From assembly GCA_022764085.1 (NCBI GenBank), contig JALERP010000139.1, forward strand, positions 1-39,330: a stretch of 39,330 nucleotides of DNA, given 5' to 3'. The number at the start of each line of letters is the position of its first letter. Positions within the stretch are counted from its first letter, which is position 1. The DNA comes from Prevotella sp. Its GTDB lineage: Bacteria > Bacteroidota > Bacteroidia > Bacteroidales > Bacteroidaceae. The notes beneath the pieces are model-generated. The model was not told the origin of the DNA and ran no database searches. It worked only from the letters and a program-made list of their open reading frames with translations. The position numbers were made by a program, and so were the translations under genes. Shown in pieces: positions 4,071 through 34,287 of the stretch.

Positions 4071-4090
4071 AAGCTTAACATCTTAAATCT

Positions 4091-12993: not shown

Positions 12994-13012
12994 ATTATTA
13001 TACTCTATTACG

Positions 13013-14734: not shown

Positions 14735-14746
14735 AAACGTCGTTAC

Positions 14747-17700
14747 TTAAAAATCTACTGTGATACCTAATGTATATGAACGCGAGCGAGGTGTCTGTGC
14801 CCAGTCGATTGCCGGGTCATAGCCACTGGCTGTGATGTCGGGGTCAACACCCGAGTACTTCGTGATGATGAACGGGTTGTTGGCACTTGCATATATGGCG
14901 ATGCGGTTAAGGCCTATTGGCTTCAGCATCTTCTTGCCCAACGTATATGAGAGCTGGATATAGCTCATACGCAGATATGAACCTGTCTCCACGAAGCGGT
15001 CGCTGACGAGGGTGTTGTAATTCGATGTGTTTCCGAACATTGCACGCGGGATTGTTGTCACGTCGCCTTCCTTGCGCCAGCGGTAGTTTACGGCCTGGCT
15101 CTGGTTGTCGTTGCCTCTCATTGACTCGGCGTTCAGGCGGGCCATGTTAAGAATCTTGTTACCCACACGGTAGGTGAACTGTGTGGAGAGTCGCCAGTCC
15201 TTGTAGATGAAGTTGAATCCGAAACCACCGGTGAGCTTAGGCAGTGAACTTCCGAGATATACGATATCGAGTGCGTCGATGTTACCGTCGTGGTTTACAT
15301 CCTCATAGATGGCGTCGCCACCGGTGAAAGGATAGTTCTTGCCTGTACCCTCGTTGTTGTAGTTGTAGCGCATTCTCAGTGGATTGCCCTCGGCATCGAG
15401 AATCAGCTTGCCCTCGGCATTGAATGCCACAGGGGCAGTCTTGCCGGCTGCTATGAATGCTGCGCGCTCCTCGTCGCTGAGGTCCTTGAAGGTCTCATAG
15501 TTATACTGATATACGCCCTTGCTGCGGAATCCGTAGATAGCTCCGAGCGGGTTGTTCAACTGCACGCGGCGTAACCACTCTCCATTGCCGTAGGCGTAGG
15601 TTGAGTTGAGAGAGTTGATGACATACTCGTCCATTTCAAGTATCTCGTTGCGGTTGTTACCGAAGTTGGCGTTCACGTCAATGGTCACCTTGCCCACCTT
15701 GATGAGGTTGCGGGTGTTGAGGTGGAACTCCCATCCGATGTTTCTCATCTTACCGTTGTTGTGGTAAGGTACGGTCATATAACCTGAGTTGCTCGGTATG
15801 CGGTAGTTGCTGAGCAACATGTCTGATGTCGTAGAATGATAACCCTCCAAGGTAAATGTCAGTTTGTCGTCCCACAGACCGATGTCGATACCGAGGTTAT
15901 AGCTTGAGTTAATCTGCCAGCGCAGGTCGGTCAGACGGATATTCACAGGATACATGGTTGCCATGTCGAGGTATCTGCTGCCCGAGGCATACTTACTGGT
16001 GTAGAGGTAGTCCTGGTTGGGCTGGTTACCCACGCGTCCCCAGCTTGGACGGATGGAGAGCATTGAGAGCCACTTCTCACGGAGCGGTGTCATAAACGGC
16101 TCGTCGATGATGTTCCAACGCAGTGAGACTGCGGGGAAGTAACCCCAGCGGTTGCCAGGTCCGAACTTTGTGGTACCGTCGGCACGCATTGAGAAGTCGA
16201 ACATATACTTACCCTTGTAAGCGTAGTGCATAGAATAGGTGAAGTACATCGAACGCCACTGTGAGTACCACGAGGCGAGACCGGTGTTCACACCGCCTGC
16301 GTCAGGACTCTCGATACCGCCGGAAGGCAGCAGTTTGGCACCGTTTGACTGTCCGCTTGAAGTACCTGAGTTCAACTCGAAACGACCCATCATCGACAGT
16401 GAGTGGTCTTCGCTGTTGAAGTGAGGTATGAAGGTAAGGGTCTGCTTGGTGTTGAAAGACACGCTCTTGGAACTGCCCGAAGATGCGGTATTAACACCGT
16501 CATGCCAATCAACAGTGCGCAGCTCTGATGGATAGAATGCGTCGTCATACTGGTTGAACACGCTCATATACACACTTCCGCGCCAGTCGAGGCGTGTGTG
16601 TGAATCATCGACACCAAGAAGACGGTAGTTGATGATAAGCTCCGGAGAGAGGTCGTATGTGCGGCGCTCCTTCTTTGCGAGATATGCACTTGCCACGGGG
16701 TTGACGTATGTCTTCTGGTTCTTGTCGAACACGTCCGAGGCTGTCTGCAGCATCTGATAGAAACGGTCAGTGTCCTGTCCAGTAACAGGGTCTTGCTCAT
16801 AGATGCTCATATTAGGCATCTTCTTCATTGCTATGGCAAGGAGGTCGTCACTGTTGAGCTTGTTCTTGGTATATGTCAGGGCGAAGTTGGTTGACACCTT
16901 GATACGCTCGCTGACATAGTAGTCGAGGGCAACACGTGTGGAGAAACGGCTCAGCTTCTGTTGGATTATCGAACCAGTCTCGTTGTCGAAACCACCACCG
17001 ATACGGAAGGAAGCCTTCTCGCCACCACCGGTGATTGACAGGTAGTGATTCTGTCGAAGACCTGTCTGTGTCACTGCACTGCGCCAGTCGGTGTTGTTGT
17101 TATACTGCTCGTATTCCGAGAAGTTGGGGTCGTAGTTTATTTCCTTGATGCTCTGGCTGCGGCTGTCATCCTGTGTAGGATTGAAATAGCTCTCCTTCAA
17201 CATCATGGTATAGTCATCACCACTAAGAAGGTCGTATCCCTTTGGCTGGTGGGTTGCTGTCATCTTCAGAGAGTAAGACACCTTGGGAGCACCCATGGCA
17301 CCACGCTTTGTAGTAAGCTCAATGACACCGTTACCACCCTGGCTACCATATACTGCAGTTGCGGCGGCATCCTTCAGCACGCGGATGTCGGCGATGTCCT
17401 CAGGGTTGATGTTGAGCAGTTCGGCAAACTTCTCGTCGTTGGCGCCGCCAAGGTCGAAGTTTGACATATCAACACTGCGGATGTTACCATCGACAACAAT
17501 GAGCGGGTCGGCATTTGTCAGTGAAGACAAGGCAGAGGTACCGCGCAGACGGATGGTGGAACCCGAACCGAGGTCACCCGAGTTACCAATAATGTCAAGA
17601 CCGGCGATACGTCCCTGTAGTGCCTCATCCACTGAGGTGATGGGCAGACCGGCAAACTCCTTCATAGAGATCGACTGGGCTGCGTAAGACACCTCACGCT

Positions 17701-18091
17701 CAGGAATACCGAGGTTGTTACCGCCAGTACGCTTCTTGGCCACGACGGTCACTTCCTTGATTTGCGTTGCTGACAACATCTTAATGTTGAACACGGCTTT
17801 GTTGATGGCCAGTATCTGGGTCTTCATACCTACATAACTGAACCTGATCTTGTTCTTGGCATTCTTCACGTTCATGGTGAAGTTACCGTTCAAGTCGGTA
17901 ATAGTAGAGTTTATGATACGTCCGTTGGCATCAATCTCACAGACGGTAGCGCCCATCAATCCTCCCATATCGTCAGAGACATTACCGTGTACTGACGTAA
18001 TCTGGGCATATATTGACGAGCATACCAGCAAGGCAAGCACCGTCAGAATAGTGCGGCACTGTCCCATAGACTTTTGCAATATAGCCTTCAT
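14747..18091 (-). CDS. SusC/RagA TonB-linked outer-membrane protein (pair A)
   Basis: Likely start Met11 of the ORF ('MKAILQKSMGQCRTILTVLALLVCSSIYAQ'). 'VHGNVSDDMGGLMGATV', 'DPLIVVDGNIRS', 'VLKDAAATAVYGSQGGNGVIELTTKRG'. Confidence 0.95.
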   Translation of the reverse strand: MKAILQKSMGQCRTILTVLALLVCSSIYAQITSVHGNVSDDMGGLMGATVCEIDANGRIINSTITDLNGNFTMNVKNAKNKIRFSYVGMKTQILAINKAVFNIKMLSATQIKEVTVVAKKRTGGNNLGIPEREVSYAAQSISMKEFAGLPITSVDEALQGRIAGLDIIGNSGDLGSGSTIRLRGTSALSSLTNADPLIVVDGNIRSVDMSNFDLGGANDEKFAELLNINPEDIADIRVLKDAAATAVYGSQGGNGVIELTTKRGAMGAPKVSYSLKMTATHQPKGYDLLSGDDYTMMLKESYFNPTQDDSRSQSIKEINYDPNFSEYEQYNNNTDWRSAVTQTGLRQNHYLSITGGGEKASFRIGGGFDNETGSIIQQKLSRFSTRVALDYYVSERIKVSTNFALTYTKNKLNSDDLLAIAMKKMPNMSIYEQDPVTGQDTDRFYQMLQTASDVFDKNQKTYVNPVASAYLAKKERRTYDLSPELIINYRLLGVDDSHTRLDWRGSVYMSVFNQYDDAFYPSELRTVDWHDGVNTASSGSSKSVSFNTKQTLTFIPHFNSEDHSLSMMGRFELNSGTSSGQSNGAKLLPSGGIESPDAGGVNTGLASWYSQWRSMYFTYSMHYAYKGKYMFDFSMRADGTTKFGPGNRWGYFPAVSLRWNIIDEPFMTPLREKWLSMLSIRPSWGRVGNQPNQDYLYTSKYASGSRYLDMATMYPVNIRLTDLRWQINSSYNLGIDIGLWDDKLTFTLEGYHSTTSDMLLSNYRIPSNSGYMTVPYHNNGKMRNIGWEFHLNTRNLIKVGKVTIDVNANFGNNRNEILEMDEYVINSLNSTYAYGNGEWLRRVQLNNPLGAIYGFRSKGVYQYNYETFKDLSDEERAAFIAAGKTAPVAFNAEGKLILDAEGNPLRMRYNYNNEGTGKNYPFTGGDAIYEDVNHDGNIDALDIVYLGSSLPKLTGGFGFNFIYKDWRLSTQFTYRVGNKILNMARLNAESMRGNDNQSQAVNYRWRKEGDVTTIPRAMFGNTSNYNTLVSDRFVETGSYLRMSYIQLSYTLGKKMLKPIGLNRIAIYASANNPFIITKYSGVDPDITASGYDPAIDWAQTPRSRSYTLGITVDF

Positions 18092-18124
18092 CTGTTGTTT
18101 TGTTTTAATGTAATACTCCATAAC

Positions 18125-20836
18125 TTACCTCCTTCTCGCTTTAGATTTAGCCATTTCTTGTCTCCACGGAGTCTTCTGGCTTGACGTATAGAACAACGGG
18201 CCGTCTATCTGATGTACCAGCACATCGGCAGTGGTATAGATGGACTTGTTGAAGAGTGAACCTGAAATCCAGTATTCACGGCAGATATTGTTATACAATC
18301 CGTCCTTCTTCACTACGCTGCGCGTGTCGCCTAAAAGGTCCTTCACTGTAAGGCTCTTGTTTGCCATATCTACCTCAAGACTGTAGAATCGGTTGGTCTC
18401 GGTATTGAGCATCATCGACTCATAGTTGTTCTTTGTGATGGCAATTCCTTCCGAGTCGGTATCGGGAGCACCATTTACTGCCACCGAGTTGTCCTGGATA
18501 TGATACTTCACGAAGTCAAGGATGCGATTTGATATCATGGTGCATGCTGCCTTGGCTGCGGCCCTTTCTTCTTCTGTAGAACCGTGCTCTGAAATCTCAT
18601 ACTGTGCGTCGTAGTCTTCCCAAGTGGGCAGCACGCCGTCGTTGATGAGCTTCCGTATCGACTCGTTGGTTGGGACATAAACAGTATAGTTATATGCACC
18701 GAAGAGGCGGATATTACTGTTGGTAGCTGAGTTGACACAGTTATACTTCACATTGTTGAGCGTGATTGTGCTCAACAACAGATGGTCGTCGGCTGGAAGG
18801 TTCTCCGAACCGCTCAGCAACTTGAGGAACTCGGAATATTCTTCCTTCTCGTTAAGAATCTGATATACAGACCTGGTGGCGGCCATCGGGAACTGCTCGT
18901 TGAATCGGTATGACTTACCGTTACCAGTGGTTGACATGTCGTAAATGGAGTCAACCTTTGCAATGGCGTTGTTCTCCAACTGCCATCCACCCTTTACAAT
19001 CATCTGGTTGCTCTTTCCGGCATTCTCAATCTTCACAGTAGTACCGTTTTTCGACTTGAAGTAGCTATAGTCGTTCTCTACGCTACCCACAATAATCATT
19101 TGGTTGACTATGTCTCTCAGACGGTTTTTCACGATTGCGTCAGCCACGTTTTCCTGTGCCCTGTTGCCCATTACTATCTCTCCGTTCTCACCGAGTGTAT
19201 AGTAATATCGTGAAGCCTTAACCTTTCTTTCGAGATTATCATAGTAGAACATCAGGAGCGACATCTGTGCATCGCCCACAGAACAGGGGTCGAGATAGCA
19301 CAACATGGCATTGTTGGTTGGCAACATAAGACTGTAGTATGAGTCCATTGAATTAAGATATGGCGTGAACTCCAACTCGTCGATTGCCCAATATATGACA
19401 CTCATTACGTCCTGATGGATAAGTGCGGGGAACGAAACGCTCGAATACTCCATTGGGGCGAACACGCGGTTGGTTAGATAAACCACACCGTTACAACCCA
19501 TGAAGCAACTATCTACATCGGCGGTAGTAACACCCATCGACACCTTTGCGTCGTTAACGATAGACGAGAACTTCGATGGCAATGCCTCGGTGAACGTACC
19601 GAGCATGTTTACACGCAAGAGTTTTGAAAGCACGAGGTCGGGCACATTGTCCCATGTACCGTACTTGTCCTTGAGCACCTTACCGTCGGCGTTCCACCAC
19701 TTGTCGAGAGCCTCGTTGCTCGGAACAAGCATGACACCGGCATCATAGTGAAGGTCGTAACCACTGGTGTTCTCATACATGTACTGATTCCATCCCGGGT
19801 CAAAGGTGAGCTTTGCAGGCACCTTTACCGGCACTGGGTTGCCGCTTGTCACGGGATAATATTCCGCATTCATACCGTCCTTACGGGTATCGGCGAAGTA
19901 GCGCAGTGTAAACACTGAATCGACACTCTGATTGTAGAGACGGTTGTACTCCTGTGTCTTGTAGTAGTCATAGTAAGGCGCACTGAAACGGTCAACCAGA
20001 TGCGACCACATTGACGTATTGGAATGCTGACGAAGGATTTCAGCCATATTGGGGAATCCCTCAACCACTCCATCCATCTTCTGAATATAACCGTTCTTAC
20101 AGGTAAGGTCTCTCTCAACCACCTTTCTTCCTGCCACGTAAGCGTCGTTGACAGAGGTGGCCACACCATTGGTGAGGATAGTGATGTCCTCGTCGGTGAA
20201 CGCCTGCTTGCGCATGAAGGCGGGAAGGAAATGAATCATCGGGGCCGACAGTCCGGCTGTCGAACCGTTGCTCATCATTCTACCGTCCTTGAAGAGGATG
20301 ATGTCCTTCTTGTTTTCCTTGTACCATGCCCATGCCGGAAGAGTGCCGTTCATGTCCTCGTGCTTCATCACATATACTGAGTCGAAGACACTCGTTGAGT
20401 TGGGACGTCTCATGGCGAGACCCGTCTCTGGTGGGTCGGCACTAACGTTAGACATCAGCTCTATCAGATAGGCATTGTTAATCATGGAGTTGTTCAACAG
20501 GTCTTTTTTCTGAGCTAAGGTGAGCTTGTCATACGACCTTACTCCCCACTTGTTTGTCTTGAACCACTCATCGAATGCAGCGTCGGTGGCTGCAAATAAT
20601 GTAACTGAACCGGTTCGGCTCATCTGATCATGCAGTCCCAGGTCGTCAATAAGCCTGGTTGTCACCGTATAGTTGCCGTCTTTCTGCAACTCCTCATAAA
20701 TGGAGTTACCCAACCATGAAGGCTGTCCCGTTAGGGTGTCATCCTGACATGACTGGAAGGCAACTGACGTGGCCAACATCAGACCGATTGCAAGTGTGGG
20801 CCTATACGATCCCTTTTGGATAAGTTTGCAATTCAT
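18125..20836 (-). CDS. Fasciclin-domain lipoprotein, large (903 aa)
   Basis: Lipobox-like 'SVAFQSCQDD'; repeated FAS1-like segments 'GSVTLFAATDAAFDEWF...NNSMINNAYLIELMSN', 'AGVMLVPSNEALDKWW', 'YTVYVPTNESIRKLI'. Confidence 0.85.
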   Translation of the reverse strand: MNCKLIQKGSYRPTLAIGLMLATSVAFQSCQDDTLTGQPSWLGNSIYEELQKDGNYTVTTRLIDDLGLHDQMSRTGSVTLFAATDAAFDEWFKTNKWGVRSYDKLTLAQKKDLLNNSMINNAYLIELMSNVSADPPETGLAMRRPNSTSVFDSVYVMKHEDMNGTLPAWAWYKENKKDIILFKDGRMMSNGSTAGLSAPMIHFLPAFMRKQAFTDEDITILTNGVATSVNDAYVAGRKVVERDLTCKNGYIQKMDGVVEGFPNMAEILRQHSNTSMWSHLVDRFSAPYYDYYKTQEYNRLYNQSVDSVFTLRYFADTRKDGMNAEYYPVTSGNPVPVKVPAKLTFDPGWNQYMYENTSGYDLHYDAGVMLVPSNEALDKWWNADGKVLKDKYGTWDNVPDLVLSKLLRVNMLGTFTEALPSKFSSIVNDAKVSMGVTTADVDSCFMGCNGVVYLTNRVFAPMEYSSVSFPALIHQDVMSVIYWAIDELEFTPYLNSMDSYYSLMLPTNNAMLCYLDPCSVGDAQMSLLMFYYDNLERKVKASRYYYTLGENGEIVMGNRAQENVADAIVKNRLRDIVNQMIIVGSVENDYSYFKSKNGTTVKIENAGKSNQMIVKGGWQLENNAIAKVDSIYDMSTTGNGKSYRFNEQFPMAATRSVYQILNEKEEYSEFLKLLSGSENLPADDHLLLSTITLNNVKYNCVNSATNSNIRLFGAYNYTVYVPTNESIRKLINDGVLPTWEDYDAQYEISEHGSTEEERAAAKAACTMISNRILDFVKYHIQDNSVAVNGAPDTDSEGIAITKNNYESMMLNTETNRFYSLEVDMANKSLTVKDLLGDTRSVVKKDGLYNNICREYWISGSLFNKSIYTTADVLVHQIDGPLFYTSSQKTPWRQEMAKSKARRR

Positions 20837-20856
20837 GTCAATTTAAGTTTTAATTA

Positions 20857-23800
20857 TTATTTTAATTCTTTCTTTCCATTTCTTATTCTTATTCCCTTTG
20901 TCTGGGCATTGTCTTTAATTTCCATACCACCAAGGGTGTATGTTTTTCCACTGCCCTTCATTTCCTCTTTCACACCATCAATACCTGTGGCATTACCAAG
21001 GTATTTCAGGGTGAAATTGTCGAAGCAGCACCAGTCGGAATATACGGAATTGTTATTCTCTATACCTATTTTTATATTGCCCGGCTCAGCAAGTTTCACC
21101 TTTAGGGTCAGTTTGTAATAGCCGTAGGTATTGAATGCCTCGTTGGCTGCCTGCACATTATCGGGATAGGTATAAGGACTCACACCGTATCTGTCGGCAC
21201 TCTCGTCGTAGAGACTCATCACGGACACCGACTCGCCGTTGGCGAAGAACACTGCGTTAAGCTGCTCTGTTCCGTCGGCCACCGCGTTGAGGGCATTGTC
21301 TATCGCACCGTATCTGTAGAAGCTCTGTACTCCCACTTCATACTCACCCTCAGGCAGGTTTTCCACTGTCTGGTAGAACGAGAACCAAGTGTTCCAGTAT
21401 TCTGCCACATAACCGTTTGCCTGGGTGAAGTTGCCGGATGTTGTCCATCCCTCACTTCCCTTGCTGAAGTCGGGATTGACCATCAAGGCGGTCATATCCA
21501 CTGACTTACCAGCCTCTGCCATTTCAGTGATAAAGTCCTTATAGATTGACTCACAACCTGAGAGTGCCACGAGGGCATCGTTCATGGCCTTGGCGTTCTC
21601 TGCAAATGTCGTGCTGTTGTTAAGGGCATTGTAGGCAGTTTCAAGTGCCTTGCCTATTGTTTCCGACTTGCAGGCCTTATAGTAACTTTCCACTGTGGGC
21701 AGCAAGGTCTTCACCTGTTCCCATGTTCTCAGATAATCATATTCGGCGGATGTTATCTTGAGTATGCAACCGTGTTGGGCGGCAACGGAACCGCTGATAA
21801 GTGCGGGTGCACTCACGTTGAGTCCCTGCTCGTCCATGTCGCGCATCTTATAGCCATAACCTGCACCGGAGTAATTGATATATGCGAGCTTCCACTTGTC
21901 GCTGCCTATGAGTCGCCACTGGGTGGGAGCCTCGACTGCCTGGTTGTTGTCGCCCACATGGAAGTCGGGAGTTATAGTCCACTGGCATGTTCCTGTTGTC
22001 TCGCCTGCCCTCGGGATGAGGTGTGTGGCTGTGGCACGGTCGAAGCCCGAAGTCTTCTCGCATTTGTAAATCATTACATACTGCTTGTCAACCGCATTCC
22101 AGACTATGTCGGCATCTATGATGTCATAACCGGGGTCGAAGTAAAGCTGCGGACGGGTGAGTATGTTCAGATCCTTATCTACCACGGAATAGTAGATGCG
22201 GTGACGGTCGGGGAAGCCAACACTATAATATACCACGAAGTTTCCGCTCTCGTTGTCATATATAATCTGAGGTGCCCATGCGGCAGTCATCTGCTCGGCA
22301 GTGATACCTCCGAGAGCCTCAAGGTTCTCAGGTGTCTCAAGGTCAATCTTCACGTTCTTTGTCCAGTGGACAAGGTCGGGCGAGAGCATCAGAACCATAA
22401 CATGGTTGCTTGTCCATCCCAACCTTGATGTCATGTCAGTACCGGCGAACATGAAGTTGCCGTCGGGCATTCTTGTGATGAAGGCATCACGCATACCGCC
22501 GGTGACGGTATTCGCCTTTGTGTCAAATACCTCCGCACCGTTGAACATGTCGTTCCAGCTCTGTCCATGCTGGCTAAGGGCATAGTTGGTATATTCACCA
22601 TTGCGGTTCATGTGGGCATAGAGATAGCCTGACATTCCTGCGTCTTCCTTCTCGTATTCTTCGTATGTTGTCTTTACTTCCTTGCCAATCTCCTTTGCTC
22701 CAAGACGGAAGATATTCAATGAATATGCGGGTATGTCCAATGTGACGTGTGTTTCATCCGTAACATTTACAATCTCACCCTCTGACGGCTTGACGTTGAA
22801 CGGATGTTCCATAGTGTTCTCGTCAGTACCGTTGGCTGACGCAAGTCTTACTACCGTTCCGTTGCCTATCTTCATGTTAAGCGTGTTCAGGTCGATAGTC
22901 TGGGCAGTTGCATGGGGATTGACCACCTTGACAATCAGTTCACCGTTGGTCTCGTCAATCTGCACACTCTGATAAACACCGCGGGCACCGGAAGCTTCGG
23001 GCAGGTTGAACTCATGACATACGTTGTTGTCGAGCAGACAAGTGACCTTGCCATTCTCCACCCTAATCTCCACGTCATACCAGCGGTTGCTTGCCACACT
23101 GCCACCGACTGAGGCATAAGTGGCCTTCTGTCCGTTAGTACATATCTCCACTGCATGCTGGGTATTACCCCATCCGCCTATGTTCCACCATGCGTAGTTG
23201 TTCGTATCCTGATAGTTGAACATTATGAGGAATCCCTCGTCGCCAGAGATTTTCTTTGCGCGCACCTTATATATATAATTACCTGTGGCTGCCACGTTCA
23301 GCACAGCAGTGCAGTTGGTGCCGGTAGATGTCTGCTTGAGGAAACCGTTCGTCACGCTCCAGTTTCCTTCTCCCTTTGTCCATTGCGAGATGTCGCCACT
23401 GAAATCGTCGGAGGCAATGGTATTACCTTTTATATCGGTCAATGAGGCGTTGTCAAACTGTGCCACCGTACCCCATGTGCCTACTCCTACCTTTTCCTCG
23501 CCATTGCCTTTAATCATGTTTCCGCTCTCAGTCCACAGGAGGTTCTGTTCACCGAGATGCACATTCATAAGTTTCTGCACATAATATGAAGGGGTAACGA
23601 AGTTGTCTGCGGCGTTGAAGTGAATCATGTCATACGCCCAGCAGGGGTCTTGCTCGTGCATGAAGATGGGTGCGAAGGATGCCAACTGGCACACGTCGCT
23701 ATTGCGCTCCATACCAAGCATATACACAGCCTCGCCAAGAGCACTGTTCATATTGCCGTATCTGCCGTAGTTGCCTCCGTTGGCGGCATATTCTCCGTTA

Positions 23801-25119
23801 TAAACAGGGATAGTGCGTGGATAGTTATCATACTTGTTGTAGTTGTCGCGCATCCACATGAAGTTGCGGTAGTAATGCTCGTCAACCATCTCCACGGGAT
23901 ATTCGTTGCCCCATGCGGGATTGTCCGTACCCCATGCCTCCACGTTGCCGATAGTGATTATCTCGGGATATTTGGCCTTGATGGCATCATAAAAGAGCTT
24001 GTATCTCTCTGCATAGTCAGAATGCAGGCCTGCCTGATAGTTCTCGTTTCCTATCTCAAGGAATTTAAGGTTGTACGGAGCAGCATGTCCGTTGGCTATA
24101 CGCTTGGCTCCCCACTCTGTTGTCTCGTCACCGTTGGCATATTCTATGGCATCGAGAACATCCTGAATCAGTATCTCTGTGGAATCTTTTGAAAGCGCAA
24201 AGCCGTGACCCACTCCAATGTTAACCACGAACATCGGCGCGGCTCCGAGGTCCTCGCACATCTGAAGATACTCGTCATATCCGAGACCATCTGACGACCA
24301 ATAATGCCAATTCTGGTTGTAGTGTCCTGGACGCTCCTCAATCTTTCCTATAGTCTTCTTCCACTGGAAGGCATTACCATAGCTGCCCTCTCCCTCCACA
24401 TAACATCCACCGGGGAAACGGAGGAACGACGGCTTGGTGTCAGCCAGTAGCTGAGCCAAGTCGGGACGCAGTCCGTTGGGACGGTCCTTCCATGTCTTGG
24501 GAAACAATGACACGACATCAAACGTCAGACGGCCATTGCTGCCCGTGAGCAGTAGTAGCTGTCCTTTCTTGTCGGAATCTGTCGCCGTGATTTTTGCCGT
24601 GAGCTTGCTCCACTTGGAGTCGCTAATCTCACCTTCGAGTGTTGCCTCACCGAGCACCTTTGTATTGGCTGCGTTGCGTAGCTGGGCCTTGATTTTGTTT
24701 GAAAATACATTATCCCCCTTTACCCATAGAGACAATGTATAGGTTTCATCCTTCTGGATGTTCATTCCCCAATAGCCTGTGTTTGAGATTCCTTTTAGTT
24801 TGGAATCAGAAGCACCTGATATTCTAACCTGCAATGCGTGATGCTGGGCATCGTTAAGCATGTCGTCGGTGACAAGACTTATTATAGAACCGTTGAATGA
24901 CTTCCATGATGCAGTGCCGTCCTCAAACGAGCGGTTGCTCACTAGTTCTGCATACAGACCACCGTCGCCTGCATGATTGATTTCCTCAAAAAACAAGCCA
25001 TACTGATACTGGCTAATCATCGGACCGCGCTTGGATGCATCGACCGTCATTTTCACTTGCGCCTGTGCGCTACTGAATGTTACACCCAACAACAATGCAG
25101 TTAGAAAAATATTCTTCAT
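20857..25119 (-). CDS. Multidomain secreted alpha-L-arabinofuranosidase: GH51-type + intervening LamG-like domain + GH43-like domain + CBM-like module + sorting-like tail
   Basis: GH51 signatures 'YGLFFEEINHAGDGGLYAELVSNRSFE', 'FLRFPGGCYVEGE', 'FLEIGNENYQ', 'VDEHYY', 'YNGEYAANGG'. GH43-like 'MTAAWAPQIIYDNESGNFVVYYS', 'IIDADIVWN', 'AVEAPTQWRL'. C-terminal 'FYRYG' module and 'IRIRNGKKELK' end. Confidence 0.88.
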   Translation of the reverse strand: MKNIFLTALLLGVTFSSAQAQVKMTVDASKRGPMISQYQYGLFFEEINHAGDGGLYAELVSNRSFEDGTASWKSFNGSIISLVTDDMLNDAQHHALQVRISGASDSKLKGISNTGYWGMNIQKDETYTLSLWVKGDNVFSNKIKAQLRNAANTKVLGEATLEGEISDSKWSKLTAKITATDSDKKGQLLLLTGSNGRLTFDVVSLFPKTWKDRPNGLRPDLAQLLADTKPSFLRFPGGCYVEGEGSYGNAFQWKKTIGKIEERPGHYNQNWHYWSSDGLGYDEYLQMCEDLGAAPMFVVNIGVGHGFALSKDSTEILIQDVLDAIEYANGDETTEWGAKRIANGHAAPYNLKFLEIGNENYQAGLHSDYAERYKLFYDAIKAKYPEIITIGNVEAWGTDNPAWGNEYPVEMVDEHYYRNFMWMRDNYNKYDNYPRTIPVYNGEYAANGGNYGRYGNMNSALGEAVYMLGMERNSDVCQLASFAPIFMHEQDPCWAYDMIHFNAADNFVTPSYYVQKLMNVHLGEQNLLWTESGNMIKGNGEEKVGVGTWGTVAQFDNASLTDIKGNTIASDDFSGDISQWTKGEGNWSVTNGFLKQTSTGTNCTAVLNVAATGNYIYKVRAKKISGDEGFLIMFNYQDTNNYAWWNIGGWGNTQHAVEICTNGQKATYASVGGSVASNRWYDVEIRVENGKVTCLLDNNVCHEFNLPEASGARGVYQSVQIDETNGELIVKVVNPHATAQTIDLNTLNMKIGNGTVVRLASANGTDENTMEHPFNVKPSEGEIVNVTDETHVTLDIPAYSLNIFRLGAKEIGKEVKTTYEEYEKEDAGMSGYLYAHMNRNGEYTNYALSQHGQSWNDMFNGAEVFDTKANTVTGGMRDAFITRMPDGNFMFAGTDMTSRLGWTSNHVMVLMLSPDLVHWTKNVKIDLETPENLEALGGITAEQMTAAWAPQIIYDNESGNFVVYYSVGFPDRHRIYYSVVDKDLNILTRPQLYFDPGYDIIDADIVWNAVDKQYVMIYKCEKTSGFDRATATHLIPRAGETTGTCQWTITPDFHVGDNNQAVEAPTQWRLIGSDKWKLAYINYSGAGYGYKMRDMDEQGLNVSAPALISGSVAAQHGCILKITSAEYDYLRTWEQVKTLLPTVESYYKACKSETIGKALETAYNALNNSTTFAENAKAMNDALVALSGCESIYKDFITEMAEAGKSVDMTALMVNPDFSKGSEGWTTSGNFTQANGYVAEYWNTWFSFYQTVENLPEGEYEVGVQSFYRYGAIDNALNAVADGTEQLNAVFFANGESVSVMSLYDESADRYGVSPYTYPDNVQAANEAFNTYGYYKLTLKVKLAEPGNIKIGIENNNSVYSDWCCFDNFTLKYLGNATGIDGVKEEMKGSGKTYTLGGMEIKDNAQTKGIRIRNGKKELK

Positions 25120-25161: not shown

Positions 25162-25208
25162 AGAAAAATTGCAAGCGGGAGGCAGACTGCTTTAATCTGC
25201 CTCCTGCT
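25162..25208 (-). terminator. Intrinsic terminator between the large secreted protein gene and the GH51 gene
   Basis: Minus strand AGCAGGAGGCAGA-TTAAAGCAG-TCTGCCTCCCGCT (13-bp stem, one mismatch; arms 25196-25208 and 25174-25186) followed by TGCAATTTTTC. Confidence 0.72.
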
Positions 25209-25237
25209 TTATTATTTAGTTCAAGAACTCAAAGGTA

Positions 25238-28200
25238 TTACTTAATGTTTACCTTGCTGAACTTAACGGCACCGTCCTTAGATGTCATCTTAACGATGTT
25301 AACACCCTTAGAGAAGCCCTTGGTCTTCATACCGTTGACATTGTAGATCTCAACCTTTGCAGGCTCTGCTACCTCAACGCCCTCAACACCAGTGCCGATG
25401 TTGCTGTTCTCGCCATAGTATGTGAGTGTCCAGTTGTCGAGGATTACCCAGTTATTATTAACAACGTCCTCCTCTGCAAGCTTGATACCGATGGTTAGCT
25501 CGTTGTCAACAACCTTGACGATTACGTCGTTCTTGTAAGCGTCGAGAGCCTGGAAGTAGAGGTTGGCAGATACCATATCGTTAGGAACATAGAGTTCTGT
25601 ACCTTCGATATTTGAGGTACCGCCAAAACCGTTGTCCTCGCATGCACCTGATGACAGGAGAGCTACAGAAGTCTGGTTGGTCTCTGCACCTGAAGTTGCA
25701 TACAGATATGCGTTACCCTGAGTGTTGGGATCCTCTGAGTACTTAGCCCAGTCCTCTGCTGTGCTACCGAAGCGATAGAATGCGTTGACACTCACCTTAT
25801 AAGTACCGTTAGGCAGACCAACGATAGTCTGGTTGAGGTCGAATGCCTTGCCGAAGAACTCAATGAGCAATGCTGACTTCTGACTGTCGTCATTACCGAA
25901 GCTGTAACCGTCAGCGTTCCAGCCATCGATAGAGTTTGCACCTTCCTTCTCGAAGTTTGGAGTCTGGATGAGAGTAGTCAAGTCAACAGGATTATCGTCT
26001 GAAGCGTTCTCAGCATCAGCAGGAATACCAAGTTTGATAATCATCTTGTCAATTGCGGCGATATAAGCCTCAGCATCCTCATTGTTAAGAGTGTTGTTCT
26101 CTATACCATTATTAATCTCAGTGAAGAGATTGGCTGCCTCAGACTTAACCACCTCTGTTGCAGCTGAGTTCAGCCATGCAAGGTTGAGGTCTTCGTTCTT
26201 CTGGACGAGTTTTGTGAACAGAGAAGCTGACTCAATGAGAGAGTTCTTAGCGTCGATGATTTTGCAGAGCGAAGTGAACATTGCCTTACCGTCATTAGAA
26301 GAAATGGCTGCATTAGCACCATCAAGAATGATATTGGCAGCCTCCAATGTTGACTTACCAACTCTATTGGCACTGTTGATAGCTTCCTGCATAGAGACGA
26401 TAGCATCAGAGAGCAACGGCTGTACTATCTCAGCCTTTGTGCCCTGGAATACCATCTTGAAGTTGTCCCAGATAGCCCAGCTGTCACCAAGCTGGTTGGT
26501 TGCACCCTTGACACCAATGCGGAGAACATCACCTGCATTTGCAACTACACCGAATGAGGTGGCTACGTACATGCCATTTGCGAATGCCTCACTACCGGTT
26601 GTCATATCATTAGGATACCAGTACTCATTATTCGGATCAACGTAAGTTCCACCTGTGTAAAGTTCACCATTAGCAACAGGCTCGTCGAATACGCTCTTGA
26701 AGTGAGCATTGTTGTTGTTTACATAAATGTTCACAGCGTCATTAGGAGCAGTTCCATTCTGATAAGCCTCGTATGCTGTGGCACCACGTCCGTAGCGATA
26801 GAATCCCTGAACAGAAATTTCATATACACCTATAGGAGCGTCAGCTACTTCCTGATAAATATCAAACTTGCTATTGTTCCAAGCCTCAAAGCATTTATTT
26901 GTACTGGTACCACCGTATGCAACATTACCGCCATTTGCCTTCTCAACAATCCAGCCCTTGTTAGCTGTCTCAAAGTCAGCGTTTACAAGATACTTGTCAG
27001 TAACGTCTGTACCTTCCTTGATACCGTTCTTGATAGCATTATCGTACATAGTCTTTACCTTCTCTATCTCAGCATATACTTCCTCTGTAGAAAGAGCCAG
27101 GTCGCCGATAATGCCCTCAGAGTCAAGGTCTATATAGTCAGCCAAGTCATCCTTATCCGAACCGCTAATTTGTTCATCATTAGCTATGACGGCAGCCTTG
27201 TCAAGGATGTCCTTATATTCCTTCCATGCAGCGATGTTAGCATCCACCTTGGCAACTTCCTCGTTGATGGTATTGATAGCGGCGAGAACGTCAGCCTTGC
27301 TGTTGGCGATTGTCAATCCGGCAATAGCATCGTTGTAAGCGTCGATAACACCATTGGTTACGAGAACATCCTCAGAAAGACCTGAATAGTCCTTAGCTGC
27401 CTTCTTGGCCTCGTCAAGCCACATTGTGTAAGCGTCAGCTCCGTTGCCATAGTATGTCAGACCCCAATTGTCATAGAGTACCCAGTTACCGTCAGGAGTG
27501 TCAGAGTTGTCCTTCATCATACCGATGGTCATGTCGCCATCCTCTGTTGCGAAGAACACCTTATTATTATATTTACCCAAGTTGAAGTACTCCTCAGCTG
27601 TCTGCATGTTGTTGGGGATATAATAAACAGTACCGTCAGCGGCGGTTACATTTGACTCATTCATGCCAAGAGGTTCGGTGAGTGCCTCAGAGAACGGATT
27701 GACGATGTCAACCTGTACCTTTTCGCCATCAGCCTCGGCATAGAGCTTTGCGTCATACTGAGTCATGTTGATATAGTTCTCATAAGCTACATTGGAAAAG
27801 CCTGAACGATAGAAAGCCTGAACATTCAGAGCATATACACCCTTAGGAGCGCCAGTGATGTTCTGATATGTGTTGAACTTCTTCTTATAGAACTCTGCGT
27901 CAGTCCAAGACTGGAATGCAGGAGCATCACCACTCCAACCTGTGTTGTTATTGCTGTCATAGCTTGGATTGACAATCAGAGAGGTCTTGTCAACAGGATT
28001 AGCTGCTGTAACATTTCCTTCCTCTGCTGCTGCGAGTTTCTCCTTAACAGAAGCAATGGCCTCATTAATTGTATCTACAGAAGAAGACTCGTCGAGATAA
28101 ACCTTTTCCTCAGCTGAAACATCGATACCGCCAGCCTTGGCCTCGTCAATTACCTCTTTAAGATTCTGTGCAGCTCTGTATGAGGTAAGCAAAGCATTGT

Positions 28201-28792
28201 AAGCATCGAGGTCTGCCATATCAACAAAGTACCAGTCGATATCACCTTCCTCTGCGGTCAGATTCCAGTAAAGTAGTGGGTCTGAGCCACCCTTCTTAAC
28301 ACCAAAGAATGTGTTTGGCCACCATTTAGTAGCGTAGTCAACTGATGTAGCAACTGAAAAACGATAGATATCATTACCAGTATTAGTTAGCGACCAAAAA
28401 CGTCCTGCATGACCACTATTGTCAACCCATACATTTCCGATTGGAGCCAATTCTTCATCGTTAGTACCATCCCAATCATCAGCAAAGGTACATCTCCACT
28501 CGTTAAATTTCAATACATAATCCTGCAACAGATATGTATCATCCTCATTTTTGGTGATTTTCACCCTATAAGGAGAATCTGAAAGCTGACCGCGTGTTTG
28601 ATACGGATCTCCAGCAGCAAAGAACTGCTTTGCTCCTGTGTTAAACAGATACATCTCCGTGTCGAAAGCCAATGGAGACTTCACGGGGAGCGGTTGCTGA
28701 CGTACTCCGTCAACAATCTCTGCACTTGCGCCTGTTGCAGACAAGCCCAAAAGTGCCATCATAAGTAATTTTCTACCAAAATACATAGGCAT
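25238..28792 (-). CDS. Large secreted multi-module putative glycan-binding protein with three CBM-like repeats, N-terminal lectin-like region and C-terminal sorting-like tail
   Basis: 1184 aa with signal peptide. Three modules of pattern 'N-x-D/S-F...GW...Y/NQ...P.G.Y...V.(A/G)FYR.G...Y.PN(D/N)M...W...DN(W/F)' separated by helical linkers; C-terminus 'EIYNVNGMKTKGFSKGVNIVKM...KVNIK'. Confidence 0.75.
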   Translation of the reverse strand: MPMYFGRKLLMMALLGLSATGASAEIVDGVRQQPLPVKSPLAFDTEMYLFNTGAKQFFAAGDPYQTRGQLSDSPYRVKITKNEDDTYLLQDYVLKFNEWRCTFADDWDGTNDEELAPIGNVWVDNSGHAGRFWSLTNTGNDIYRFSVATSVDYATKWWPNTFFGVKKGGSDPLLYWNLTAEEGDIDWYFVDMADLDAYNALLTSYRAAQNLKEVIDEAKAGGIDVSAEEKVYLDESSSVDTINEAIASVKEKLAAAEEGNVTAANPVDKTSLIVNPSYDSNNNTGWSGDAPAFQSWTDAEFYKKKFNTYQNITGAPKGVYALNVQAFYRSGFSNVAYENYINMTQYDAKLYAEADGEKVQVDIVNPFSEALTEPLGMNESNVTAADGTVYYIPNNMQTAEEYFNLGKYNNKVFFATEDGDMTIGMMKDNSDTPDGNWVLYDNWGLTYYGNGADAYTMWLDEAKKAAKDYSGLSEDVLVTNGVIDAYNDAIAGLTIANSKADVLAAINTINEEVAKVDANIAAWKEYKDILDKAAVIANDEQISGSDKDDLADYIDLDSEGIIGDLALSTEEVYAEIEKVKTMYDNAIKNGIKEGTDVTDKYLVNADFETANKGWIVEKANGGNVAYGGTSTNKCFEAWNNSKFDIYQEVADAPIGVYEISVQGFYRYGRGATAYEAYQNGTAPNDAVNIYVNNNNAHFKSVFDEPVANGELYTGGTYVDPNNEYWYPNDMTTGSEAFANGMYVATSFGVVANAGDVLRIGVKGATNQLGDSWAIWDNFKMVFQGTKAEIVQPLLSDAIVSMQEAINSANRVGKSTLEAANIILDGANAAISSNDGKAMFTSLCKIIDAKNSLIESASLFTKLVQKNEDLNLAWLNSAATEVVKSEAANLFTEINNGIENNTLNNEDAEAYIAAIDKMIIKLGIPADAENASDDNPVDLTTLIQTPNFEKEGANSIDGWNADGYSFGNDDSQKSALLIEFFGKAFDLNQTIVGLPNGTYKVSVNAFYRFGSTAEDWAKYSEDPNTQGNAYLYATSGAETNQTSVALLSSGACEDNGFGGTSNIEGTELYVPNDMVSANLYFQALDAYKNDVIVKVVDNELTIGIKLAEEDVVNNNWVILDNWTLTYYGENSNIGTGVEGVEVAEPAKVEIYNVNGMKTKGFSKGVNIVKMTSKDGAVKFSKVNIK

Positions 28793-28839: not shown

Positions 28840-28847
28840 CAAAGTTC
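28840..28847 (-). promoter_or_regulatory. -7-like box GAACTTTG (one mismatch to TAnnTTTG) for the large secreted protein gene
   Basis: Minus strand GAACTTTGC, 19 bp downstream of the 21-bp tandem repeat operator candidate. Confidence 0.5.
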
Positions 28848-28866
28848 GTCATTTTGACGCATTCCA

Positions 28867-28908
28867 TGGGGTATATATCATTATTTTAGGGGTACAAATC
28901 ATTATTTT
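28867..28908 (+). promoter_or_regulatory. Tandem 21-bp direct repeat, candidate HTCS operator (site 1)
   Basis: tggggtatatatcattatttt / aggggtacaaatcattatttt, adjacent units, 18/21 identical. Confidence 0.6.
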
Positions 28909-28927
28909 GACGTATATTTCCCATTTT

Positions 28928-30064
28928 TCACCATTCATCGCGCCAATTTATCACCGGTACACCATCCTTGTCGAAGTCGATAGGCAGCCATATATACCGC
29001 GCATCTATGGGATGCTCGGGACGCCAGATGTCAGCCATGAAGATATACTTGCCGTCATCCGTAGGAAGGACAAATGTTGACTGACCGCCAAAGGTTATCT
29101 CTTCCTTCGGTCCACGACAAGGATTGGGATGCTGTTTCCACGGTCCCCATATACTCGGGGCAGAGAACATCCTCGCCTTGTTGGGAGCCCAACCTGTGCA
29201 TCCGCTGGCAATCATCCAGTAGGTGTTGCCATGACGGAAAACTGCGGGTGCCTCGTTCTGTCCTCCGGGAGCCACACGTACATAACGCCCCGTATGCGAG
29301 AGATAGTCATCACTGAGTTCAGCTATATGCAAGGTGAGGTTGTCCTCAGAGGAAAAGATATGATATGCCCTACCGTCGGTATCGACAAAAAGGGTCATGT
29401 CTCTCGACATCTGTCCTGCTGGAAGGTTGTGTCCTTCTTGCGTGCGCGCCTTCATATCGCGCTTCAGGAAAAGGCCCTTCTTTATGGCATCCCGCCAAGT
29501 GGGTGTCCACCATTCCTTATAGTTGTCGGCATTGAGAGTGTCAAGCACCGCTTTGTCCGCATCGTCAAAGTCCAATGGATAATGTCCGGCATTCGCCCTG
29601 TCAGAACGTATGAACTTAAACGGGCCTTTCGGCGAGTCACTCACCGCCACGCCGTAGCGAGCTTGCCAATAGCCCTCGCCCTTGAGCTCGAGGTGAAACC
29701 ACATCACGAATTTCTTCGTAACCTTATTATATATAACCTTAGGGCGCTCAAGAGTACAGCCAGTCTCAAGGTCGTGACCTTTCTCATCCACAACACTCAA
29801 AGCCACACCTTCGTAACGCCAGTCGCGCAAGTTCTTTGATGAATAGCAGGTGACACCAACAAAGGCGGCACTCGATTTCTCGCCCTTGTGTTCGCCATAC
29901 CAATAGTAGGTATTACCATGTTTGAGCACACCACCGCCGTGGGCATTGATATGCTCACCACGGTTGTCTTTCCAAATCTCACCGGACTTGATGGTGGTCT
30001 TGCCTGACGAGAGAACAGGCAAGACCACGAGTAATGATATTATGATAACAGTTATGAGACGCAT
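28928..30064 (-). CDS. Family 43 glycoside hydrolase, exo-beta-1,3-galactanase/arabinofuranosidase-like type
   Basis: 378 aa with signal peptide. 'INAHGGGVLKHGNTYYWYGEHKGE', 'LERPKVIYNKVTKKFVMWFH', 'NEAPAVFRHGNTYWMIASGCTGWAPN', 'DIWRPEHPIDARYIWLPIDF', resembling galactanase-like GH43 subfamilies. Confidence 0.85.
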   Translation of the reverse strand: MRLITVIIISLLVVLPVLSSGKTTIKSGEIWKDNRGEHINAHGGGVLKHGNTYYWYGEHKGEKSSAAFVGVTCYSSKNLRDWRYEGVALSVVDEKGHDLETGCTLERPKVIYNKVTKKFVMWFHLELKGEGYWQARYGVAVSDSPKGPFKFIRSDRANAGHYPLDFDDADKAVLDTLNADNYKEWWTPTWRDAIKKGLFLKRDMKARTQEGHNLPAGQMSRDMTLFVDTDGRAYHIFSSEDNLTLHIAELSDDYLSHTGRYVRVAPGGQNEAPAVFRHGNTYWMIASGCTGWAPNKARMFSAPSIWGPWKQHPNPCRGPKEEITFGGQSTFVLPTDDGKYIFMADIWRPEHPIDARYIWLPIDFDKDGVPVINWRDEW

Positions 30065-30101
30065 TGTTACACAAGTTTTGGTTATTGTTTCAATTTTTGC
30101 G

Positions 30102-30109
30102 CAAAATTA
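30102..30109 (-). promoter_or_regulatory. -7 box TAATTTTG for the GH43 gene
   Basis: Minus strand TAATTTTGC, exact TAnnTTTG, 19 bp downstream of operator candidate site 2. Confidence 0.55.
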
Positions 30110-30128
30110 CTGCTAAAAGGTGTTTTAA

Positions 30129-30170
30129 AGGGGCAATTATAGTGAATTAAGGGGTAAAAATAGTGATTTT
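30129..30170 (+). promoter_or_regulatory. Tandem 21-bp direct repeat, candidate HTCS operator (site 2) in the GH43/HTCS divergent region
   Basis: aggggcaattatagtgaatta / aggggtaaaaatagtgatttt, adjacent 21-bp units; second unit matches site 1 second unit at 17/21 positions. Confidence 0.6.
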
Positions 30171-30204: not shown

Positions 30205-30212
30205 TAACTTTG
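30205..30212 (+). promoter_or_regulatory. -7 box TAACTTTG for the HTCS gene
   Basis: TAACTTTGC, exact TAnnTTTG, 31 bp before the ATG at 30244; weak -33-like TTCG 19 bp upstream. Confidence 0.5.
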
Positions 30213-30243: not shown

Positions 30244-33200
30244 ATGATAATACTAATAATTATTTTATTGTTGGCGTCTTTATCCATCAGGGCAACCGAA
30301 ATTAAATGCAAGACGGCTTCACCTATCAAAATATACGCTTTTGACTCCGACGAGTCAGGAAAACTATATATTGACAGTAGCGGGATGTTGTGGATAGGCA
30401 CCATGTCTGGCCTGATGTCATACGACGGAGCTGAATACCGCACGTTCAAGTCAGACGCTTATTCACCCAATATCCTACCCAATAATGTCATCGTTTCAAT
30501 CACCGAAGACCATGAGTCCAACCTATGGATTGGCACAAGGGACGGACTGGTGAGAATGTCGAGGAAATACGGTACGTTCAAGACTTACCATCTGCCCAAG
30601 CCAAACCAAAGAATCATCTACACACTTTTCACGGCAAAAGACGGAACGGTATGGATCGGTACCGACGGAGGACTAAGCGTATATAACAAAAAGACCGACT
30701 CGTTCTACACATACGAATTGGGGTACAACTACAGCGTAAAGTCCATTGTGGAGGACAAACAGGGTAATATATTCTTCGGCACATGGTGCAACGGAGTGAA
30801 AAGACTGCGCAAGGACAGAAAAAACATTGACAGCTATCCGTCGCTCAATCCGTCAAACTCAGCATACACACTGCTCATAGACAGCAAGCAGAGACTATGG
30901 GTGGGAACGTGGGGATACGGAATAGCTCTCATCGACAACCCTAATAATACAAATAATGTACGCGTACATAATTATATTATTAATAAGAATAACGCCAACA
31001 TCATATACAAGATGATAGAAGACCCCGTGAGCAACACTATATGGGCTTGCAGCAGAAACGGCATAGGCATAATGCGTCAGGACAGGATGGAAGACGGATT
31101 TGTCAACTATCCGCAATATAAGTTCTGCCGCGAGATAACAACCGACGGATATGGACATATCTTCGCGGGAACATTGAACGACGGTATTCTCAGGTTCAAC
31201 ACCAATGCCAAAACCTATGATGTGATGCGGATAGACCTGAACAAGGCAGAGAATACCATAAATGTCATCAATAGCCTACATACTGACGACGGCATAAACT
31301 TCTGGCTCGGACTCAGGCCATGCGGTATTGCAAAATACAATGCCGCCACAGGAAGCATTGTATATAACTCAGACATAGCCGAACTGTGCAACTGCCCCAA
31401 TATCAATGACATATTCAAGGCAAAAGTGCCGGCAATATGCAAGAACAGGGACGGAAGCATATGGTTTGCAAGCAGTAGCGGTGGAGTGCTGATGCTAAAA
31501 GGCAAAGAGGCATCGGTATTCAACACCTGTAATTCGCCATTCATCACCGACAACTACGTAAACTATGTGTTTTGCGACCGCGAGGGCAACGTATGGATAG
31601 GACAGCGCGAGGGCGTTGGAGTGAAACTGGCGGAAAACAGACAGCAAAAGAGGAACTTCAACGGCTTCATGCTGAAAATGACAGATAATGGACGTGACTT
31701 CTCAAACTGCGACGCAAGAGGCATCATGCAAGACCACAAGGGAAATATGTGGATTGCCACCGAAAACGAGGGAATAATAAGGGTGAGCGGAGACATCAGA
31801 CATGTCAACTCGCTGAAATACAAACAATACAAAGGGAAATTGGACAATCTCGCCATTGACGACATAACATACTGCATGGAAGACTCACGCCACAGGATAT
31901 GGGCAATATCCAACTGTGGCTCGCTGTTCCTCTACAATGTGGAGGAAGACCGCTTCGTAGCGGTCAATAACTCATATCATATAATGGCAAACAGTCTGTT
32001 TGCCATCTCCGAGGGTTCCCTCGGAGACATTTGGCTCCTAACTGACAAGTCGCTCATCCAGCTTGTCTTCGAGGACGAGTCAAACGGTGCTGTTCCCAAG
32101 ATAAGGACCTATTCAAACGAAGACTCCCAAGGCAGGCGCATCAGTTCGATGTCGGAGATATTCCAATATCAAGACAAATTCTTCATCGGAAGCAAGGAAG
32201 GAATCCTGTCTTTGCAACCGAAGAACATGAGAACCATAAGACGACATAATCCCAAACTGAGCATCACCGACTTTACATTCGACGATAAGCCCTTCTTCCA
32301 CCTTGATTCACTGACACGCAGAAAAATATCAACTGAAACCCCTGCCTTCACCCGCAAAATCACGGTACCGGCTTCAGTAAGCAAGTTCTCAATAGAATTT
32401 GTCCTGCTCGACTATTTCCATCAAGCCCAAAACAGATACTCATATCAACTTGAAGGATACGACAAGACATGGCACTTCACCGTAAACCAAAGGCAAGCCA
32501 CATACGAAAACCTGCCGTCGGGAACATACTACTTCAGGCTGAGGGCATACGACGACTTCGGTAACATACAGGAACTGCCCTACTCCATCACCATCCGCGT
32601 GCTCCCGCCATGGTATCTCACCTGGTGGGCATGGATGCTATATATCCTCGCCGCAATAGCTGCCATCTGGGCAGGAATAAGATGGTACAAGAACCTGCTC
32701 AAGACGCGCAACCGCCTGCAGATGGCTGTAGTGTTTACCAATATCACCCACGAACTGCTCACACCATTGGCGGTTATCACTGCCATAGTGGATAACATGA
32801 GACGCCGCGAGGCAAAGTTCAATGATGATTATACACTGATAGACAACAATATAAACAAGATAACGCGACTGCTCAGGCAGATTCTCGAAGTGAGAAAGGC
32901 ACAGGCAGGACAGCTAAAACTGAAGGTTAGCCGTGGCAATATGCTCACGTTTATCGACAATGCGGTGAAAGATATAAGACCAATGGCGGAAGCCAAGCAG
33001 GTGACGCTAAAGCTCGAAACTATTGGGTCGAAAGCGCTCGAAGACGCATGGTTTGACAACGACAAACTGGACAAGGTTATCTATAACCTCATATCCAACT
33101 CAATAAAATACAACAACGAGGGAGGGTACGTCAACGTGAAGGTTGAGGAAGAAAACTCAAAGGTGAAAATCTCGGTTGAAGACAATGGTATCGGAATGTC

Positions 33201-34287
33201 TCACCAACAGATGAGGAAACTATACGAGAGATTCTACGACGGCGACTACCGCAGAATGAAGGCAGGCGGCACAGGCATCGGACTGTCGCTCACGCGCGAC
33301 CTCGTGCAACTGCATCACGGCACCATCAACTGTAAGAGCCACAAGGGCGAAGGAACAACATTCACCATCATACTGCCTATAAAGAAGGACGCCTTCATGC
33401 AAGAGGAAATCGACACTACGGACATGGGAAGAAAGCAGCCTGCATTGGATGTCATAACAGACAATGTGTCAGGCATTTCGCTCACGCCCAACGATAAAGA
33501 CAACAATGTATATAAGATTCTCATTGTGGAAGACAACGAGGAACTGCTTGCACTTATGAAACGCCTGCTCGACAAGAAATATAGCGTGATGACGGCAAAG
33601 AACGGCAAGCAGGCCCTGAACATCATACACCGCGAGGAACTGGACATAGTAATCTCGGACGTGATGATGCCGGTGATGGATGGCATAGAACTCACCAAGG
33701 CTATCAAGAACGACCCTAACTACGCCCAGCTGCCGGTAATAATGCTGACGGCGAAAAACCAGGACGAGGACCGCAAGAACGCGCTTGTGGCAGGTGCGGA
33801 TGACTATATCACCAAACCCTTCAGCATGGTTGACCTCGACATACGAGTGAGCAACATCATCGCCAACCGCCACAGGATTCGCAAGAAATTCGCCGAACAG
33901 ACAGACTTCAAGGTGGAAGAGCAACACTACAGCAACCCCGACCAGGCATTCGTGGAGAAGGCGGTGGAGTGTGTTAAGAAACACATATCCGACGGCGACT
34001 ACGACCGGGAGTCCTTCGCCTTCGACTTATGTATCTCATCCTCAACTCTATACAACAAGTTGCGCGCCATAACGGGACAGAACGTCACTGCCTTTATAAC
34101 AAGCATTCGCCTGAAGGAGGCATGCCGCATATTGCGCGAGAATCCGTCAATCTCCGTCGTGGAACTGTCGGCAAAGGTGGGATTCAACACGCCAAAGTAT
34201 TTCTCGAAATGCTTCAAGAAGGAATTCGGAATGACAGTAAAGGATTTTATTTTATTGGAACACAGAGACACAGAGATACAGAGGTGA
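30244..34287 (+). CDS. Hybrid two-component system regulator (beta-propeller/Y_Y_Y sensor, histidine kinase, receiver, AraC-type HTH)
   Basis: 1347 aa. Repeated 'LWIGT.DGL' propeller motifs; 'YQLEGYDKTWHFTVNQRQATYENLPSGTYYFRLRA'; H-box 'FTNITHELLTPLAV'; 'DNGIGMS', 'GTGIGLSL'; receiver 'ILIVEDNEE...DIVISDVMMPVMDG...AGADDYITKPF'; C-terminal AraC-type HTH. Confidence 0.96.
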   Translation: MIILIIILLLASLSIRATEIKCKTASPIKIYAFDSDESGKLYIDSSGMLWIGTMSGLMSYDGAEYRTFKSDAYSPNILPNNVIVSITEDHESNLWIGTRDGLVRMSRKYGTFKTYHLPKPNQRIIYTLFTAKDGTVWIGTDGGLSVYNKKTDSFYTYELGYNYSVKSIVEDKQGNIFFGTWCNGVKRLRKDRKNIDSYPSLNPSNSAYTLLIDSKQRLWVGTWGYGIALIDNPNNTNNVRVHNYIINKNNANIIYKMIEDPVSNTIWACSRNGIGIMRQDRMEDGFVNYPQYKFCREITTDGYGHIFAGTLNDGILRFNTNAKTYDVMRIDLNKAENTINVINSLHTDDGINFWLGLRPCGIAKYNAATGSIVYNSDIAELCNCPNINDIFKAKVPAICKNRDGSIWFASSSGGVLMLKGKEASVFNTCNSPFITDNYVNYVFCDREGNVWIGQREGVGVKLAENRQQKRNFNGFMLKMTDNGRDFSNCDARGIMQDHKGNMWIATENEGIIRVSGDIRHVNSLKYKQYKGKLDNLAIDDITYCMEDSRHRIWAISNCGSLFLYNVEEDRFVAVNNSYHIMANSLFAISEGSLGDIWLLTDKSLIQLVFEDESNGAVPKIRTYSNEDSQGRRISSMSEIFQYQDKFFIGSKEGILSLQPKNMRTIRRHNPKLSITDFTFDDKPFFHLDSLTRRKISTETPAFTRKITVPASVSKFSIEFVLLDYFHQAQNRYSYQLEGYDKTWHFTVNQRQATYENLPSGTYYFRLRAYDDFGNIQELPYSITIRVLPPWYLTWWAWMLYILAAIAAIWAGIRWYKNLLKTRNRLQMAVVFTNITHELLTPLAVITAIVDNMRRREAKFNDDYTLIDNNINKITRLLRQILEVRKAQAGQLKLKVSRGNMLTFIDNAVKDIRPMAEAKQVTLKLETIGSKALEDAWFDNDKLDKVIYNLISNSIKYNNEGGYVNVKVEEENSKVKISVEDNGIGMSHQQMRKLYERFYDGDYRRMKAGGTGIGLSLTRDLVQLHHGTINCKSHKGEGTTFTIILPIKKDAFMQEEIDTTDMGRKQPALDVITDNVSGISLTPNDKDNNVYKILIVEDNEELLALMKRLLDKKYSVMTAKNGKQALNIIHREELDIVISDVMMPVMDGIELTKAIKNDPNYAQLPVIMLTAKNQDEDRKNALVAGADDYITKPFSMVDLDIRVSNIIANRHRIRKKFAEQTDFKVEEQHYSNPDQAFVEKAVECVKKHISDGDYDRESFAFDLCISSSTLYNKLRAITGQNVTAFITSIRLKEACRILRENPSISVVELSAKVGFNTPKYFSKCFKKEFGMTVKDFILLEHRDTEIQR

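Follow-up and report, generated by a model that had tools for sequence, protein, structure and literature searches.

The window analysed here, 39,330 nucleotides of a Prevotella sp. genome (contig C105 of a 3.0-Mb assembly that is 87% complete), carries a polysaccharide utilization locus (PUL) on its minus strand, with a divergent HTCS gene (Table 1). HTCSs control a large share of the glycan-foraging genes in gut Bacteroidota. Besides GH51, the run of closely spaced genes at the far end of the PUL encodes fasciclin-domain proteins, two SusC/SusD pairs and a Glyco_hydro_cc protein; the large secreted protein encoded ahead of this run matches no Pfam or NCBIfam family. Early in its coding sequence, the GH43 gene contains a perfect 13-bp inverted repeat (window positions 29994-30028), and a very similar hairpin is present in a relative (G129). 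Among the genomes of the collection searched, the closest ortholog of the HTCS was found in a Prevotella MAG.

Table 1 Features of the PUL and of the related regulator loci (window coordinates unless a locus is named).
Feature	Position	Strand	Remarks
GH51 and eight further closely spaced genes	405..25119	-	lack a separate operator; transcription presumed to read through from operator A
Hairpin with a trailing T run	25173..25209	-	between the large secreted-protein gene and GH51; z -4.1
Large secreted-protein gene	25238..28792	-	1184 aa; first gene of a presumed long operon; putative target of operator A
-7-like box GAACTTTG	28847-28840	-	large secreted-protein gene; 19 bp from operator A
Operator A	28867..28908	-	two abutting 21-bp direct repeats, promoter strand AAAATAATGATTTGTACCCCT AAAATAATGATATATACCCCA; faces the large secreted-protein gene
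GH43 gene	28928..30064	-	putative target of operator B
-7 box TAATTTTG	30109-30102	-	GH43 gene; 19 bp from operator B
Operator B	30129..30170	-	two abutting 21-bp direct repeats, promoter strand AAAATCACTATTTTTACCCCT TAATTCACTATAATTGCCCCT; faces the GH43 gene
-7 box TAACTTTG	30205..30212	+	divergent HTCS gene; 34 bp from operator B
HTCS gene	30244..34287	+	propeller, Y_Y_Y, HisKA, HATPase_c, REC, AraC-type HTH_18 (Pfam); presumed binder
Kinase-less regulator, locus L194	8103-11036	+	operator at 19 bp
Kinase-less regulator, locus L196	8249-11125	-	operator at 19 bp

Two tandem putative operators and their -7 boxes

The two pairs of abutting 21-bp units were found at the coordinates given for them in the initial annotation, and the distance between operator and -7 box, recomputed for GAACTTTG and TAATTTTG, is exactly 19 bp in both cases, as had been proposed there. 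The units are identical at 18 of 21 positions in operator A (28867-28887 and 28888-28908) and at 16 of 21 in operator B (30129-30149 and 30150-30170). The sigma-ABfr promoter of Bacteroidetes comprises TTTG at -33 and TAnnTTTG at -7 (PMC7366714). The two window promoters resemble it in the -7 box, which is canonical for the GH43 gene (TAATTTTG) and carries a single mismatch at the large secreted-protein gene (GAACTTTG, the same in the nearest relative, G129), but differ from it in lacking the -33 TTTG, in whose place the end of the operator is found. Between operator A and its -7 box lies a small inverted repeat, CGTCA-TTT-TGACG (28847-28859), that is not clearly conserved in G129.

When the window was scored with a tandem position weight matrix (PWM), the operators reached 57.4 and 55.1, and the next site, a partly overlapping one, scored 17.9. 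On the 3.0-Mb own genome, a tandem pattern allowing up to three mismatches matched only operators A and B, both with 0 mismatches; the reversed control pattern had 0 matches on the same genome, which is 87% complete.

Conservation of the operator and of its spacing

Orthologs of the HTCS, 42-80% identical, were found in genomes of the genus, and 20 of their upstream regions were taken for comparison. In a motif-free test of lags 12 to 40 in regions upstream of HTCS genes, lag 21 stands out, with a mean best match of 13.7 of 21 positions compared to a shuffled mean of 10.8 (standard deviation of the mean about 0.28). The PWM started with the window's four units and was refined with sequences from promoters of the orthologs, chosen upstream of TAnnTTTG boxes; at no stage did the gap enter its construction. 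A scan of 375 kb, covering both strands of the 20 orthologous PUL loci and the window and blind to promoters, yielded 25 tandem sites. Each of the 25 is followed by nnnnTTTG, at a distance of 19 bp in 22 cases, 18 bp in two and 20 bp in one, and all lie on the strand that points away from the HTCS gene. The spacers between operator and -7 box are dissimilar, with a mean of 5.9 of 19 positions identical (about 31%), so that comparison of orthologous PULs, which the initial annotation had suggested as a check, shows the 21-bp period and the 19-bp gap kept over largely different sequence. Seven of the 20 ortholog loci have no strict TAnnTTTG-anchored site of the kind scored; in four of the seven, a site is present whose box or spacing is a variant, and at the remaining loci (L130, L136 and L140) there was no operator site at the threshold used.

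An independent degenerate pattern, run on 399 genomes of the genus, matched in 28, and its reversed control in none. Outside the training loci, 20 held-out sites were examined; 18 of them, including one (L295) with AAACTTTG at 19 bp plus a TTTG inside the spacer, have the box at 19 bp and two have no box, but the independent cases are fewer than 20, because some of these sites are near-identical to one another or belong to loci close to the training ones. In many relatives, the spacer between operator and -7 box contains an FNR-like dyad, TTGATNNNNATCAA or a close variant (L135, L194, L196, L197, L273, L279, L286, L291 and L292), which is absent from the window and is perhaps the site of a second regulator.

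The position of the operator relative to the upstream promoter element was compared with that of TTTG in 341 other promoter-like sites near HTCS genes. In these, TTTG enrichment is strongest for copies that end at gap 19 or 20 from the -7 box (6.7% of sites at gap 19 and 10.6% at gap 20, vs about 1% at most other distances), and this peak is the known -33 element. None of the 25 operator promoters, operators A and B included, has TTTG at gap 19-20. Thus, the operator, with its end at 19 bp, occupies the -33 slot, in line with the earlier proposal that its edge lies where the -33 element sits: the TTTG of other promoters ends flush with it. Given that the missing TTTG is partly due to the motif's own sequence, the informative point is the constant placement of the operator at the -33 slot, rather than the absence of TTTG.

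The HTCS as presumed reader of the repeats

The HTCS has Pfam matches above cut-off to Reg_prop, Y_Y_Y, HATPase_c, Response_reg and HTH_18, that is, the chain of sensor, kinase, receiver and HTH, with HisKA just under the cut-off (26.3 vs 26.9). Its receiver carries AQLP in place of the S/CHIP motif, as most orthologs carry [AGRW]QLP (L014-L034), whereas S/CHIP is present in most other Bacteroidota HTCSs examined. This motif is typical of HTCS receivers, at about 84-98% per position, but not defining, and its residues have been tied to phosphorylation-gated DNA binding (PMC11253607). With an AQLP-type sequence instead, the gating or the sign of regulation may differ from the Bacteroides paradigm.

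A check for widespread occurrence of the motif returned the two own-genome sites and none in the 104 kb at the genome's other HTCS-like loci. The same PWM found one site in paralog loci of the genus (426 kb), none at more distant HTCS loci (1.08 Mb) and one weak site at order-level loci (0.86 Mb); the reversed PWM found none. Operator sites follow the clade of the window HTCS and are nearly absent at other HTCS loci. Other genomes of the genus encode kinase-less regulators that keep the propeller, Y_Y_Y and the HTH, have neither kinase nor receiver, and whose HTH is about 58% identical to that of the HTCS; the operator is found at 19 bp at six of six such loci. That these relatives keep both site and spacing favours the HTH domain as the part that recognises the site and suggests that the DNA geometry outlasts the phosphorelay. 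Many genomes of the genus also encode short, propeller-less HK-REC-HTH proteins (about 560-620 aa; L170 9692-11437, minus strand, and L199-L203), about 44-52% identical to the C-terminal half of the HTCS. The own genome has, elsewhere, a paralog of this architecture (581 aa, 48% identity to the same half). At the loci L170 and L199-L203, no operator was found with the PWM. For other HTCS proteins, published work describes binding of response-regulator fragments to PUL promoters (PMC11253607) and ChIP-seq signals at regulated PULs (PMC3404733). It is very probable that the neighbouring HTCS docks on these repeats.

Activation model, alternatives and generality

In E. coli, AraC, a one-component sugar sensor acting at a sigma-70 promoter, occupies the direct half-sites araI1 and araI2, 21 bp apart, of which the proximal one overlaps the upstream promoter element. 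The window system has this class II geometry, with two direct half-sites 21 bp apart and the proximal one overlapping the upstream promoter element, but differs in combining a membrane HTCS with a Bacteroidetes -7/-33 promoter. HTCS operators consisting of direct repeats with a period of about 21 bp are already known: the Bacteroides study by Ravcheev et al. (2013; PMC3878776) describes direct repeats upstream of PUL operons beside the HTCS gene, all 16 HTCS motifs reconstructed for B. thetaiotaomicron being direct repeats with an average period of 21 bp, and predicts a dimer whose two monomers sit on the same side of the DNA. The window operators share with the Bacteroides ones the tandem direct repeat, the period and the location near an HTCS gene, and differ in genus and sequence; no fixed -7 distance or -33 occupation was found reported there, in contrast to the 19 bp and the -33 slot of the window operators. 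Neither the operator sequence, the Prevotella clade and the 19-bp placement in the -33 slot, nor a description of how HTCSs engage the Bacteroidetes promoter was found in the open literature searched. A fixed spacing between HTCS operator and -7 box was likewise not found there, which is weak evidence of novelty because subscription papers were not covered.

We consider it likely that the HTCS sits on the 42-bp tandem repeats as a direct-repeat dimer of the AraC type and that it activates by taking the place of the -33 element. The AraC-type HTH domains of the dimer would sit on the two repeat units, two helical turns apart and on one face of the DNA, with the promoter-proximal unit ending where the TTTG of sigma-ABfr promoters would, 19 bp from the -7 box; the bound HTCS would most likely contact RNA polymerase at the -33 slot, in a class II mode resembling that at araI1/araI2. 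The model put forward in the initial annotation, the HTCS on the repeats in place of the -33 element, is supported at the level of sequence. Operator B also faces the -7 box of the HTCS gene, at 34 bp, and may allow autoregulation: this distance is 33-35 bp in three orthologs, although three more have other distances. A rigid distance to the -7 box in the -33 slot offers a specific activation model together with a route to predicting HTCS targets.

Activation rather than repression is inferred because the -33 element is missing and the spacing is rigid. Alternatively, repression could be the chief role of the bound HTCS: sitting on the repeats, it would keep polymerase from the -33 region until released by ligand. 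The clade does lack the S/CHIP lock, and non-consensus HTCSs could bind unphosphorylated, BT2391 being cited as a repressor (PMC11253607). However, promoters without the -33 TTTG would be weak unaided, a 19-bp spacing held over unalignable spacers is unnecessary for a repressor, and the kinase and receiver of the HTCS look intact by Pfam, so that we regard repression as the main mode as unlikely. The true binder might, conceivably, be another regulator, such as an unlinked AraC-family protein or a short HK-REC-HTH paralog, given that AraC-type sites resemble one another and that the genome encodes the 581-aa paralog described above. This is quite improbable, as the sites lie only beside the window HTCS clade or its kinase-less relatives and are missing from the short-paralog loci.

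The fixed distance to the -7 box would also suit a -33-like element of an alternative sigma factor, without an activator. We give this very little weight: sigma elements are shorter than a 42-bp tandem direct repeat, the -7 boxes are those of a primary sigma factor, and the sites track the HTCS clade. As for a dispersed repeat or a chance AT-rich duplication with no regulatory role, the units are indeed short and AT-rich, but the genome has two sites in 3.0 Mb, all 25 sites of the ortholog set precede a TTTG box at 18-20 bp, and the reversed controls gave 0 in the own genome, at the HTCS loci and in the genus genomes. Together with the gap in PWM scores between the two operators and the next site in the window, these results led us to reject such an origin, which now has next to no credibility.

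The HTCS-activation reading leaves the GH51 gene and those after it to transcription from upstream. The PWM scan found no operator ahead of GH51, either in the window or at four orthologous loci (L123, L125, L126 and L141), extending to four relatives what the first inspection of the window had indicated. Three of the four relatives examined share the hairpin upstream of GH51, including some compensatory changes, and the fourth has a different sequence in its place; the hairpin is a possible attenuator or processing site. The conserved hairpin and the lack of an operator fit read-through transcription past the hairpin, and the simplest reading would be read-through with partial termination or processing.

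The arrangement may extend to HTCSs across Bacteroidota, which would then be -33-replacing activators with operators that, irrespective of repeat sequence, always end 19 bp from the -7 box; we put this forward tentatively, as a conjecture somewhat short of probable. If true, HTCS targets could be read off a genome by geometry alone. A general 19-bp rule derived from a de novo tandem search was dropped: among 12 other HTCS groups, one stood out and eleven were not clearly above the off-lag controls. Generality beyond the window HTCS clade is suggested by two observations. At promoters of unrelated, non-orthologous HTCS loci, the best combination of lag and gap was lag 21 at gap 21, the same as for the orthologs and an optimum common to two separately drawn sets, with a small effect (about 0.33 vs 0.28). 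A 19-bp distance to a -7-like box is also seen for six of seven operators in one distant group of HTCSs (Pedobacter, a Chitinophagaceae MAG and other Bacteroidales), a count for which the register was set by hand on CCC[CT] and relaxed boxes were allowed. Three distant HTCS loci (L228, L230 and L237) have three or four successive repeats of about 21 bp, rather than two.
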